From Dialister pneumosintes (GTDB taxonomy: Bacteria; Bacillota; Negativicutes; Veillonellales; Dialisteraceae), in NCBI RefSeq assembly GCF_001717505.1, contig NZ_CP017037.1, positions 1-64,000 on the forward strand: a stretch of 64,000 nucleotides of DNA, read 5' to 3'. The notes under the pieces were generated by a model. The model saw only the letters and a list, made by a program, of their open reading frames with translations. It did not search any database and was not told where the DNA came from. Positions 17,717-23,938 of the stretch are shown here, piece by piece. Position 1 is the first letter of the stretch; the number at the start of each line of letters is the position of its first letter. The position numbers were made by a program, and so were the translations under genes.

Positions 17717-17812
17717 TGTAACACTCCTTTGTGATACAGTGAATATTAATATGATTTATCATAAAACTCTTTTAGATAGGTGTCAATGCAATTAATAAGG
17801 GGATTATATTAT

Positions 17813-18310
17813 ATGAATTTTTTGGATATTAGAAATTGTACAAAAGAAGATTTATCAGCAGTTAAATATATTTATAACACCTGTATGAAAGAAATATCCT
17901 GTGCATATATTCCTTATACTATGGAAACGCTGCAAGATTTTTATAAGATAAAAGTAGAGAAAAAAGAACCTTTCTTAGTAGCAACTTATCAAGGAGAAGT
18001 AGTTGCATTTACTACTTACACATTGTTTATAGATTGGTTCATGCCTATAAGAACTATTGATTATGGAATTTATGTAAAGAAAAGTGCTCGAGGTAAGGGA
18101 ATTGCTAAGCAATTAATACATATATTGTTCATTTTGGCATATAAACAAGGCTATAGAATGGCCAACGCTTGTATTGATTTTCATAATGTAGCATCAATTC
18201 GTATGCATGAAAAAATGGGTTTTCATTGTATAGGTAGTTTCAACAAACAGAGTAAAGGGATTGACTATATAAGAAAAGTGTTAATATATCAGAAAGAGCT
18301 TATAATCTAA
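17813..18310 (+). CDS. GNAT-family N-acetyltransferase
   Basis: The 165-aa protein has the GNAT order: 'DIRNCTKEDLSAVKYIYN' at the N-terminus, central strands 'FLVATYQGEVVAFTTYT', the acetyl-CoA pyrophosphate loop 'GIYVKKSARGKGIAKQLI' (R/QxxGxG/A type) and 'HNVASIRMHEKMGFHCIG' near the C-terminus. This is closest in pattern to the phosphinothricin-acetyltransferase-like subgroup, though the natural substrate cannot be told. The start is ATG 17813; AAGGGG precedes it, whereas the in-frame GTG 17780 has no ribosome binding site. Confidence 0.85.
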   Translation: MNFLDIRNCTKEDLSAVKYIYNTCMKEISCAYIPYTMETLQDFYKIKVEKKEPFLVATYQGEVVAFTTYTLFIDWFMPIRTIDYGIYVKKSARGKGIAKQLIHILFILAYKQGYRMANACIDFHNVASIRMHEKMGFHCIGSFNKQSKGIDYIRKVLIYQKELII

Positions 18311-18332: not shown

Positions 18333-18362
18333 AAAACTCACTAGCTGTATCTAGTGAGTTTT
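18333..18362. terminator. Bidirectional terminator between GNAT gene and antiporter gene
   Basis: AAAACTCACTAG (18333-18344) pairs with CTAGTGAGTTTT (18351-18362) around a 6-nt loop, with flanking A and T runs. Confidence 0.85.
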
Positions 18363-18367
18363 TATCA

Positions 18368-19927
18368 TTATTTTTTACTACAATCAATAAGTGCGGCCCA
18401 GTCTTTTTCGTCCGGTGCATCGCCTACATGATAGGTATGATATAACTTACACATTTCTAAATATTGTCTATGTAGAAGTGATTGTTTATTTTGAAGTTGT
18501 TTTTGATGAAATTTAGATAATTCTTTCATATGCTTAGCAGCGAGTTGATAGGCCTCATTTCTTTCTTTTGTATTTTTTATAGCATTTAAACTCTCTTTTA
18601 AAGCACTTACACGTGCACAACGCCAGATTGACATCTGCAGTTCTTCTTCTTCTAAATGATTTTCCGCAATTTCGATATGGCTTTGAAAAATTTCATGTAA
18701 ATCCAATGGATGTTGAAAAATTTCTTTTAATGCGGAAATCGGTTCTGCATCGACTACTCGATATGCAATAGATGCGAGAAGCGGCATCATAAAGATACTG
18801 ATAGCTCCTGCTGCTACTAATACGGAGGCAACATCCGGATGCATAAGTCCTTGTCTGGTTGCGATAATTGTAATTGCTACGATGAGCGGTAATGCAGTTG
18901 TACAATAAAAAGCTACTGACATACGATTATGTAAAGAAATTTCTTTTCGGGTGGATTTTCTAAGTGTAAGAGAAAGGATGATTGGAAGTGAACGTACTAG
19001 AACCAAGGCTACAATAAAGAGTAATAAGTAATCAGGATGAGCCGCTACTTTTTTGAAATCGACTGAACAACCGGAAACCATGAAGAATATAGGAATAAAG
19101 AATCCGTATGCCATGCCTTCCAGCTTTGTTTCTAAACTATGTGCTCCGTCCGGAATAATATAACGAAGTACGAAACCGGCTGCAAAGGCACCGAGTACGA
19201 TATCTAACTCAAAAATAGCTGAAAACGTGACTAAAAGAATAAGTAATAAAAGTGTAACTCGAATGGAGGTTTGTGAAGAAGCGCCATCTTTAGAATTTAG
19301 AAAACGATAGATGGCATTGCCGTCTTTAATGGCTTTAGATCCTAGATGTGAAATCCACACACAACCAATAAATAAAGAACCTAAAATGGCAGCTGTTTGC
19401 CAAGTAGCACGAGCAGAAAGTAAAATAGCTACTGCCAATACAACAGCCAGTTCACCCCATGTGCCGTAAGAAAGAATTAAATCTCCAATACGTGTTCCTA
19501 ATAAGTCACGCTCTTTCATAATGGGCATGAGTGTTCCTAAGGCGGTGGTTGTAAGTAGAAGTGCTGTTGCAATGATACCGTGTGAACCCGTTGCAAAAAT
19601 AGGAACTGCCATAGCCGTTACAATAGCTAGAATAAAAGTTGCAATCCATGTATAAAGTCCATGTCTACCATCAGAACCGGTAAGTGATTTCGGATCAATT
19701 TCATATCCAGCCAAAAGGAATAAAAGAGAACAGCCTATTTCGGATAGGAGATGAATAGACTCACTGTTGGAATCGATAATCCCTGCTCCATAAGGCCCCA
19801 GTGCAGCACCGGCAACTAATAGAAGTACTGTTTCAGGAATAATTTTTTTAGGAATAGATTTAGCAATCATCGGAATGATAGCAGAAGTTACAGCTATGAT
19901 TGCTAATGAGGTAAATTCAATATGCAT
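18368..19927 (-). CDS. CPA2-type cation:proton antiporter
   Basis: The 519-aa integral membrane protein starts with about twelve hydrophobic segments ('PETVLLLVAGAALGPYGAGI', 'LLFLLAGYEIDPKSL', 'LDIVLGAFAAGFVLRY'), the Na+/H+ exchanger (PF00999) pattern. 'FLLAGYEID' and 'GAFAAGF' match conserved CPA2 helices. A cytoplasmic tail of about 120 residues, rich in Glu, Lys, Gln and His, follows in place of a TrkA-N/RCK domain, so nucleotide gating is not obvious. The likely role is Na+ or K+ efflux and pH homeostasis; the ion is not readable from sequence. It is transcribed alone from the spacer shared with the MFS gene. Confidence 0.82.
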   Translation of the reverse strand: MHIEFTSLAIIAVTSAIIPMIAKSIPKKIIPETVLLLVAGAALGPYGAGIIDSNSESIHLLSEIGCSLLFLLAGYEIDPKSLTGSDGRHGLYTWIATFILAIVTAMAVPIFATGSHGIIATALLLTTTALGTLMPIMKERDLLGTRIGDLILSYGTWGELAVVLAVAILLSARATWQTAAILGSLFIGCVWISHLGSKAIKDGNAIYRFLNSKDGASSQTSIRVTLLLLILLVTFSAIFELDIVLGAFAAGFVLRYIIPDGAHSLETKLEGMAYGFFIPIFFMVSGCSVDFKKVAAHPDYLLLFIVALVLVRSLPIILSLTLRKSTRKEISLHNRMSVAFYCTTALPLIVAITIIATRQGLMHPDVASVLVAAGAISIFMMPLLASIAYRVVDAEPISALKEIFQHPLDLHEIFQSHIEIAENHLEEEELQMSIWRCARVSALKESLNAIKNTKERNEAYQLAAKHMKELSKFHQKQLQNKQSLLHRQYLEMCKLYHTYHVGDAPDEKDWAALIDCSKK

Positions 19928-20021
19928 AAGAGTCCTCGATAAAGTAAATCAAATATAAAGTAATCATTTATAATGATATTATTATACGCCTTACATACAA
20001 GGAAAGGTAGAATTTTTAATA

Positions 20022-20050
20022 TTGACAGTTTTCGATAATTTGTTTATCAT
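20022..20050 (+). promoter_or_regulatory. Sigma-70-type promoter of the MFS gene
   Basis: TTGACA (20022-20027) lies exactly 17 bp from TATCAT (20045-20050). Transcription would start near 20057, giving a leader of about 90 nt before the ATG at 20145. Confidence 0.65.
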
Positions 20051-20077
20051 AAGTTCACAAAAGATAGATATATATTT

Positions 20078-20125
20078 AAATTCACTCGATACACATAATT
20101 TCTGTTGTTCGAGTGAATTTTTAGG
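20078..20125 (+). terminator. Terminator-like hairpin in the 5' leader of the MFS gene (possible attenuator)
   Basis: The 12-bp perfect stem AAATTCACTCGA (20078-20089) pairs with 20109-20120 across a 19-nt loop, then TT-AGG-TTTTA. It lies between the predicted promoter and the start codon, with no gene in between to terminate. Confidence 0.55.
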
Positions 20126-20144
20126 TTTTAATGAGGATATCGTT

Positions 20145-21362
20145 ATGGAACAAATACATATAAATAACTGGAAGCAAATTATTTACACCATAGCCGCTAT
20201 TCAAGTAGGGACCGGTGTTACGATTATAGGGGTGCTTTCCTTTATTCCTCTGTTTTTAGTAGAATTGGGATTGTCAGATGCAGGTGAAGCGGCTTTTTGG
20301 GCAGGACTGGTTTCAGGCATTACTCCGATGATGGTTAGCTTTTCAGCTCCTTATTGGACAAGAAAAGCGGAAGAATTTGGTGCACGAAAAATCCTTACTT
20401 TGATTTTAGGTCTTATTACAATAGTAACTTTTGCTTGTTTTTTTGTGAAAAATCCATGTCAATTATTTATTCTTCGTATGACACAAGGGCTTATGGGAGG
20501 GTTTGTTCCTGTTTGCGCATCTTTAACTGTAAAGTTTACACCTAAAGAGAGAATGACTTGGGGACTGGGAATCTTTCAAGCTGCTAATGTTATGGGGATT
20601 ATGTTCGGACCGGTTATTGGAGGGGTAGTAGCAGATTTATTTGGATATAGAGTTCCTTTTCTTGTGTTTGGATTATTAGCATTATGCAGTTTAATTGGGA
20701 CTTTATTATTTATCCCGAATGTAAAAGCTGAAAAGAAGCCGAAGGAGTCTATTTTACAAAGTATATTTTATTTTTTAGAAAATCCGACAGTACGTCTTAT
20801 GATTTTTCTACAATTTTTATGTAATTTTGCAATGACCGGAATAGGTCCTATTTTACCTTTGTATATTCGTAGTATGATGGGAATCGATACACATATAGTT
20901 GCAACTGTGGTTGGAATTATTGTTTTTATAGCCGGCGGTGCAAGTGCTATGGCTTCCATGTATGTATCGAAGTTAACTGTACGATACCCTATGTATAAAA
21001 TTCTTATGACGTCTACCCTGCTGTGTGGAATATTTTTTGTTTTGCAATATATGATGTCTACGGTATGGGAATTGGGGTTATTTCGTGCATTAACCGGAAT
21101 GTCGATGGGATTGGTCATGCCTATTGCAAATACAGTTATTACTTTAGCTGTTCCTGAAGAAAGGCGAGGAACTGTTTTTGGAGTGACAACCAGTTTGTCT
21201 CTTTGGGGAAATGTGGTAGGTCCTGTTTTTACCGGTGTGTTGGCCATGCAATGTGGATATGGTTCTGTATTTTGGAGTACTGCATTTATATTTATTTTTG
21301 CAACTATATTAATCAAAATACAGAGAGAAAGAATAGTGATAGATGATAGAAAAAGGATTTGA
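20145..21362 (+). CDS. MFS transporter, MdtG/DHA1-like
   Basis: The 405-aa polytopic protein has twelve predicted helices. The loop 2-3 motif is present as 'APYWTRKAEEFGARKIL' and the helix 5 motif C as 'GIFQAANVMGIMFGPVIGG', which is typical of drug:H+ antiporters. The pattern resembles the MdtG branch of exporters. The start is ATG 20145, after a GAGGA ribosome binding site; the open frame extends upstream to 20022 but would overlap the promoter and hairpin. The leader hairpin suggests regulated read-through. A MATE exporter follows after 80 nt. The substrate is unknown. Confidence 0.83.
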   Translation: MEQIHINNWKQIIYTIAAIQVGTGVTIIGVLSFIPLFLVELGLSDAGEAAFWAGLVSGITPMMVSFSAPYWTRKAEEFGARKILTLILGLITIVTFACFFVKNPCQLFILRMTQGLMGGFVPVCASLTVKFTPKERMTWGLGIFQAANVMGIMFGPVIGGVVADLFGYRVPFLVFGLLALCSLIGTLLFIPNVKAEKKPKESILQSIFYFLENPTVRLMIFLQFLCNFAMTGIGPILPLYIRSMMGIDTHIVATVVGIIVFIAGGASAMASMYVSKLTVRYPMYKILMTSTLLCGIFFVLQYMMSTVWELGLFRALTGMSMGLVMPIANTVITLAVPEERRGTVFGVTTSLSLWGNVVGPVFTGVLAMQCGYGSVFWSTAFIFIFATILIKIQRERIVIDDRKRI

Positions 21363-21445
21363 TAGCACCGGAATTTTTTTACTAGGTATCTATGTTAGGT
21401 AGTACTTGAATGTTAAAATAAAAATAAAAAGAAAGGAGAACGAGA

Positions 21446-22807
21446 ATGGGAAATCGCAATGGTGTAGATTTGATTCACGGCACTTTATTTAAGAAAATTT
21501 TATTTATGGCTATGCCACTTGCATTGACCGGAATTATACAACAATTTTTTAATGCAGCAGATATTGCTATGATTGGAAGATTTGTAGATAAAGATGCGAT
21601 GGCTGCTGTAGGTAGTAGTGCACCCATCATAACGACTCTCATTAGCTTATTTATCGGACTTTCTATCGGCACTAATGTAGTGTTAGCTGCTTTCATTGGG
21701 AAGAATGAAATAGACAATGTGAAGAAAACGGTACATACTTCTATTGTTCTTGCTATACTGTCGGGAATACTATTAACGGTAATAGGAGAAATTCTTACAT
21801 ACCCTTTATTAGTTTGGTTAGAAGTGCCTGTTGAAATTATAGGTACGGCGGAATTATATCTACGGATTTTATTTATAGAAATGCCTTTTGGGTTACTTTA
21901 TAATTTTGAGTCTTCTATTTTTCGTGCAATTGGAGATACTAAAACACCACTTCTTGCACTGATTATTGGAGGAATTATTAAAGTATTTTTAAATTTAATT
22001 ATTTTATTAGTACTTGATTTTGGAGCCAGTGGAGTGGCTATCGGTTCGATTATAGCGAATTTCATAAGTGCAGCTATTCTATATGTCCGTTTAAGAAAAA
22101 CTACAACTATTCTCCATGTAGAACCTTCTGCTTTATTAATAAGCTATGATATTTTAAAACGTATTTTAAAAATTGGGATTCCTGCCGGATTGCAAGGAGT
22201 GGTATTTTGCTTATCCAATTTGTTAATTCAGAGTGCATTGAACAGTTTAGGTGCGGAAGTAATGGCAGCATCGGCAGCAGGGTATAATATAGAAATATTT
22301 GTTTACTTTATGATGTATTCTTTTGCACAGGTAAATACTACTGTAGTAGGTCAAAATTATGGAGCAGGACAATTGGAACGGTGCAGACGAGCTACTAAAA
22401 TCTGTTTTTTACAAACAGCGATCTTCTCTGTATTTATTGTTGCTGTTGTAGTTTATTTTGCAGAACCTTTATTACAGTTGTTTACTGTTGATGAGACGGT
22501 TATAGAATATGGAAAAATTCGACTTTTTTATGTAATCGGTTTTGAATGGATTAATACTATTTTAGATTTATTGGCAGGAAGTTTACGAGGTTATGGAAAC
22601 TCTACAATACCTGCTGTTATTTCATTAATTGGAATTTGTGGAGTTAGGATTACTTGGGTATATACCGTTTTTGTTGAGAATCCTACGATGAAAACTTTAA
22701 TGTTGTGTTATCCGGTAAGTTGGACAGTCGCTTCTGTTATTTTATGGATAACTTATATTTATTATGTACGACAGTTGGAAAAAACTATGGGATATAGTAG
22801 TCAATAA
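21446..22807 (+). CDS. MATE-family efflux transporter
   Basis: The 453-aa protein has twelve hydrophobic segments and the two-fold repeat of MATE exporters: 'PLALTGIIQQFFNAADIAMIGRF' in the first half and 'GIPAGLQGVVFCLSNLLIQSALNSLG' in the second. 'FAQVNTTVVGQNYGAGQ' is the conserved loop after helix 8. It is likely to exchange organic cations or metabolites for Na+ or H+ at the inner membrane. The ATG follows AAAGGAG. It may share the MFS transcript, as no terminator lies between. The substrate cannot be inferred. Confidence 0.88.
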   Translation: MGNRNGVDLIHGTLFKKILFMAMPLALTGIIQQFFNAADIAMIGRFVDKDAMAAVGSSAPIITTLISLFIGLSIGTNVVLAAFIGKNEIDNVKKTVHTSIVLAILSGILLTVIGEILTYPLLVWLEVPVEIIGTAELYLRILFIEMPFGLLYNFESSIFRAIGDTKTPLLALIIGGIIKVFLNLIILLVLDFGASGVAIGSIIANFISAAILYVRLRKTTTILHVEPSALLISYDILKRILKIGIPAGLQGVVFCLSNLLIQSALNSLGAEVMAASAAGYNIEIFVYFMMYSFAQVNTTVVGQNYGAGQLERCRRATKICFLQTAIFSVFIVAVVVYFAEPLLQLFTVDETVIEYGKIRLFYVIGFEWINTILDLLAGSLRGYGNSTIPAVISLIGICGVRITWVYTVFVENPTMKTLMLCYPVSWTVASVILWITYIYYVRQLEKTMGYSSQ

Positions 22808-23871: not shown

Positions 23872-23938
23872 TATGATATCATAAAAATATGCAATAAAAT
23901 TCATTTTTTATATCATTTAAAATGAGTTATATTGCATA
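23872..23938. repeat. Long inverted repeat upstream of the pilin operon
   Basis: A 20-nt arm at 23888-23907 is complementary to 23919-23938 (one mismatch, one G-U), with an 11-nt loop. The 12-bp palindrome TATGATATCATA (23872-23883) lies just upstream. There is no T-run after the right arm, so this is not a normal terminator. It is 68 nt before the pilin start and may be an operator or a structured leader. Confidence 0.55.

Follow-up and report, generated by a model that had tools for sequence, protein, structure and literature searches.

A candidate leaky terminator in the leader of an MFS-MATE exporter operon of Dialister pneumosintes

In the first 64,000 nucleotides of Dialister pneumosintes contig NZ_CP017037.1 (the window, whose coordinates are used throughout), a gene for an MFS exporter is preceded by a predicted promoter and a perfect hairpin. 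Does this hairpin stop transcription before the exporter gene is reached, and if so, does the leader RNA sense anything? An initial annotation had proposed that the gene is attenuated, for example by stalled ribosomes or ligand binding. We favor, with a probability of roughly 0.55, a leaky intrinsic leader terminator that would lower expression of an operon encoding the MFS exporter and a MATE family transporter. The relevant features are:

20022–20050, plus strand: sigma-70-like promoter TTGACA-17-TATCAT, 11/12 consensus matches in a promoter scan
20078–20120, plus strand: perfect 12-bp hairpin, leader terminator or attenuator candidate; −15.5 kcal/mol, equaled in 0/1000 shuffles
20118–20122, plus strand: five-T run that would serve the putative terminator as its short U-tract, read from the sequence
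20133–20136, plus strand: Shine-Dalgarno-like GAGG outside the hairpin, read from the sequence
20145–21362, plus strand: MFS exporter, 405 aa, MdtG-like (MdtG is the nearest named model, below its cut-off)
21446–22807, plus strand: MATE family efflux transporter, probable second operon gene (TIGR00797, 6.6e-62, above cut-off; order kept in the sister species)
18368–19927, minus strand: CPA2-type cation/proton antiporter gene, transcribed away from the exporter operon (Pfam Na_H_Exchanger, 4.9e-40; likewise divergent in the sister species)

Promoter, hairpin and their arrangement

The promoter and hairpin lie in a gap of 217 bases between the divergent antiporter and MFS exporter genes. The region from 19000 to 22000 contains 14 promoter-like sites, against 12.2±3.6 expected by chance, so that the promoter call relies on its 11/12 score, the highest of the 14, and on its place. 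The initial annotation was right both in calling it a good promoter and in placing no gene between it and the hairpin. From its position transcription is expected to start near 20057.

The hairpin arms (20078–20089 and 20109–20120) form 12 perfect pairs, four of them G-C, around a loop of 19 nt that shrinks to 7 nt if inner pairs form, and this is the single strong stem in the leader fold. A 12-bp terminator-like hairpin had been described as extending to 20125; the hairpin itself is confirmed and the end was placed a few bases too far. The five-T run overlaps the 3′ end of the hairpin such that three of its five T residues are within the stem, and it is followed by AGG and then TTTT. In dinucleotide shuffles of the gap, a U-tailed hairpin of −15 kcal/mol or better is found in 0/1000 and one of −12 kcal/mol or better in 5/1000; the fold of the whole leader has a z-score of −2.7, with 2/200 shuffles equally good. 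Hairpin stability falls inside the range of 3′-end terminators sampled from the same genome (the window plus ten 20-kb stretches). A standard terminator scan with a loop limit of 8 nt missed the hairpin.

With a divergent gene upstream and just 24 bases between hairpin and ATG, a good promoter for the MFS gene can lie only ahead of the hairpin. As no promoter fits downstream, the hairpin is a leader element and not the terminator of a foreign transcript, a role that is also rejected on the minus strand, where no gene ends at this position (on that strand the T residues after the stem are interrupted: TTTAAATATATAT, read from the end of the stem). A transcription start after the hairpin and its use as another transcript's end had both been named at the outset as grounds for abandoning attenuation, and the sequence argues against both. 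The inverted repeat is single-copy in the genome and was therefore rejected as a repeat element; a 24-base match at 522999 falls within an unrelated stretch and looks like chance. The antiporter gene is followed at 18334–18361 by a bidirectional terminator stem that agrees with the leader stem in 11/12 arm bases, but partners matching in at least 10/12 arm bases were found for 51/102 sampled terminators, and the likeness is no evidence of duplication.

The hairpin would act as an intrinsic, probably leaky terminator ~20 nt past the transcription start. Most polymerases would stop after a leader RNA of ~65 nt, and the fraction reading through would provide low basal expression of both exporters. 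We infer all three of the steps concerned, namely termination itself, the feeding of the operon by read-through, and any dependence of read-through on conditions. Should read-through be regulated, the control would have to act directly on the hairpin or on polymerase (through Nus factors, pausing or an RNA-binding protein) and not by a leader peptide or a ligand-binding fold in the leader RNA. The attenuation first proposed is supported in part, by the leader position, a stability of terminator grade for this genome and the equivalent layout in a sister species; sensing of a peptide, ligand or drug is not supported. If transcription does stop at the hairpin, the expression of two drug-type exporters in an anaerobe of the Dialister/Allisonella group would be set after initiation, in a leader without the length that the usual sensors need, and this bare leader terminator would be a simple case open to testing. 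Otherwise the hairpin is an ordinary stem in the 5′ untranslated region (UTR).

The arrangement in a sister species and in wider relatives

A same-genus sister (G001, which matching sequence equates with Allisonella histaminiformans record L034) has the same order of antiporter, promoter, U-tailed hairpin, MFS and MATE genes, and its MFS protein is 70% identical to that of the window. The sister promoter (TTGACA/TACAAT, 11/12) is at the equivalent place, and the stem (CAGTACAT-6-ATGTACTG, 8–10 bp) leads into a T-rich stretch, GTTTTTATTTTTT if the last stem bases are included, that constitutes a strong U-tract. The two hairpins are unrelated in sequence and differ in arm spacing; the unrelated stem sequences point to a structural role for stem and T run rather than a sequence-specific site. 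In L034 (2480–2560) a hydrophobic open reading frame of 11 codons (MYWFLFFAFLL), without a ribosome site, starts at an ATG on the stem's 3′ side, probably by chance.

A search with the MFS protein gave a match in 60/60 genomes, 29 of them (the window's own included) at 1e-93 or better, the others being more distant MFS proteins. Leaders were compared at 29 of 30 orthologue loci (L004–L032; L033, at 30% identity, was left out), using 110 bases before the start and 150 shuffles each. None of the shuffles was as good at L004, L026, L031 and L032, and 12/150 were at L005; stems at L007, L008, L015 and L023 are weak (10–64 of 150 shuffles), that at L006 failed the U-tract rule of the test, and 20/29 loci have none. 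L031 and L032, from another family of the order, each have a hairpin and a four-T run ending 27–39 bases before the start. In the orthologues of family f4, presumably Veillonella-like genomes, the stem sits just after the stop of the upstream gene, and given that position it was taken as the terminator of that gene and not counted as a leader hairpin. Among other leader candidates in the sampled stretches, a stem at L042 6818–6845 adjoins a tRNA gene; it was rejected as a leader terminator and taken to end that tRNA.

To judge from these sequences the leader hairpin is not a conserved part of the MFS gene and recurs in some lineages. Conservation in relatives had been suggested as a check; it returned a like arrangement in the sister and hairpins at L031 and L032, and most other orthologues lack one. 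A broader proposal, which we regard as improbable, is that bare terminators have arisen time and again immediately downstream of the promoter in exporter operons of this order, at like places and with unrelated sequences. Each would be a sensor-less attenuator whose read-through responds to the condition of the polymerase (pausing, Nus factors, stress nucleotides) rather than to a peptide or a ligand-binding leader.

Several observations weigh against a leader terminator. The stem is followed by only two T residues before AGG, which, with G-C pairs at only 4/12 positions, would make it a weak terminator at best. The shuffle test of the sister hairpin is weak when taken alone (12/150), 24/29 orthologues have no convincing U-tailed hairpin within 110 bases before the start, and the L026 hairpin (0/150 shuffles) closes the upstream gene. 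The rarity of such leader hairpins, by contrast, counts in favor of the terminator reading: they are found at 1/32 divergent 5′ ends in the same-genome sample (the one being this hairpin) and at 2/20 in a sister-species sample of ten contig stretches, although both base rates derive from crude gene calls (longest ATG open reading frames of at least 90 aa).

Alternative roles for the hairpin

The short U-tract makes a non-terminating 5′ hairpin possible, and the main rival is accordingly a 5′ UTR stem with a role in mRNA stability or in the spacing of the ribosome site. The predicted stem leaves GAGG free, and a strong leader stem lacking any U-tract occurs in relative L008. We nevertheless consider it rather unlikely, since ~21 largely unpaired nucleotides ahead of the stem, counted from the predicted start, would leave the 5′ end free, and the sister hairpin has its strong U-tract.

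An attenuator with read-through under the control of a leader peptide, ligand or drug, the version envisaged in the initial annotation, is improbable, even though an exporter operon is served and T-box leaders (RF00230) are present in the genome, nine at E ≤ 0.001, four of these over the cut-off. T-boxes commonly act by leader termination, which makes that mode plausible in this organism and speaks for the terminator reading as well, and the window hairpin is like them in being a candidate leader element of that kind; T-boxes, however, are ~160–240 nt with a tRNA-reading domain, whereas the window leader spans ~65 nt up to the end of the hairpin and fits no known family. No start codon (ATG, GTG or TTG) is present in 20057–20077, the ~21 nt of RNA before the hairpin from the predicted start, in agreement with the earlier statement that no leader peptide with a clear ribosome site was seen. 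A competing anti-terminator fold, which had been put forward as a check, was not found: none involves the 5′ arm of the hairpin, and the leader folds at −21.5 kcal/mol with the hairpin versus −9.5 kcal/mol when it is forbidden, a cost of 12 kcal/mol that leaves the 5′ arm unpaired. Rfam gives no match in the leader at gathering level (only a tRNA within the window), and three weak matches are far under the cut-off (best E 0.78). A protein with the CAT_RBD domain of BglG/LicT-type antiterminators was found in 0/1 genome searched, the control search being positive in 4/14. The genome encodes one ANTAR protein, whose target is two stem-loops with six-base loops, a shape that the single strong stem of the leader does not have. 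The regulated attenuator lacks every specific part open to testing here, and control by stalled ribosomes or ligand is unsupported.

Known systems provide partial parallels. At Listeria hflXr/rli80 a leader terminator ahead of the gene yields a short leader transcript (PMC6310831), a known case of regulated attenuation and an arrangement like that predicted here from sequence; the target of the Listeria attenuator, unlike the window operon, is no exporter. Bacillus subtilis vmlR is a drug-resistance gene that the title of PMC9226507 links to transcription attenuation, for which the window leader is a candidate only; the work also refers to pausing, translation attenuation and (p)ppGpp, no counterpart of which is demonstrable for the window leader from sequence. 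The exporter mRNA of Escherichia coli mdtJI is ended early, as is proposed here, but its 278-nt leader is Rho-dependent and has an upstream open reading frame of 34 codons (PMC7815308). Literature searches found no start-site or terminator data for Veillonella and, among the titles listed for Dialister pneumosintes genomes and leader attenuation of efflux genes, nothing on this operon.

A DNA-level role for the inverted repeat, as an operator bound by a repressor or activator, is very improbable. The repeat is perfect and near the promoter, whose spacer is overlapped by a smaller palindrome (GATAA-n5-TTATC), but the sister hairpin differs in sequence and arm spacing, the repeat is unique in the genome, and there is no regulator gene among the tested neighbors. 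A free-standing small RNA acting elsewhere, which would be an RNA of ~65 nt ending at the terminator, is hardly credible, as the hairpin sequence is not conserved in the sister and the MFS gene would be left with no other good promoter.

Genes served and neighboring genes

The MFS protein is a member of MFS_1 (7.9e-47); its top named model is MdtG (2.2e-45), whose cut-off of 571 bits it misses with a score of 155. The ribosome site and start at 20145 given by the initial annotation are borne out by GAGG and by orthologues that align from residue ~4–9 onward. Upstream of this start the MFS frame runs on without a stop across the hairpin as far as a TTG at 20022 within the promoter, and orthologues do not match there. 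The MATE gene follows after a gap of 83 bases.

A long A+T-rich stem with TTTTTATG is present at 23888–23938, before a gene for an EamA-type transporter on the minus strand; it was set aside as a leader terminator, as it probably overlaps the promoter of the EamA gene, judging from the sequence. Beyond the antiporter gene, a GNAT acetyltransferase gene at 17780–18310 has ArsN1 (arsinothricin resistance) as its nearest models, with scores far below the cut-offs.
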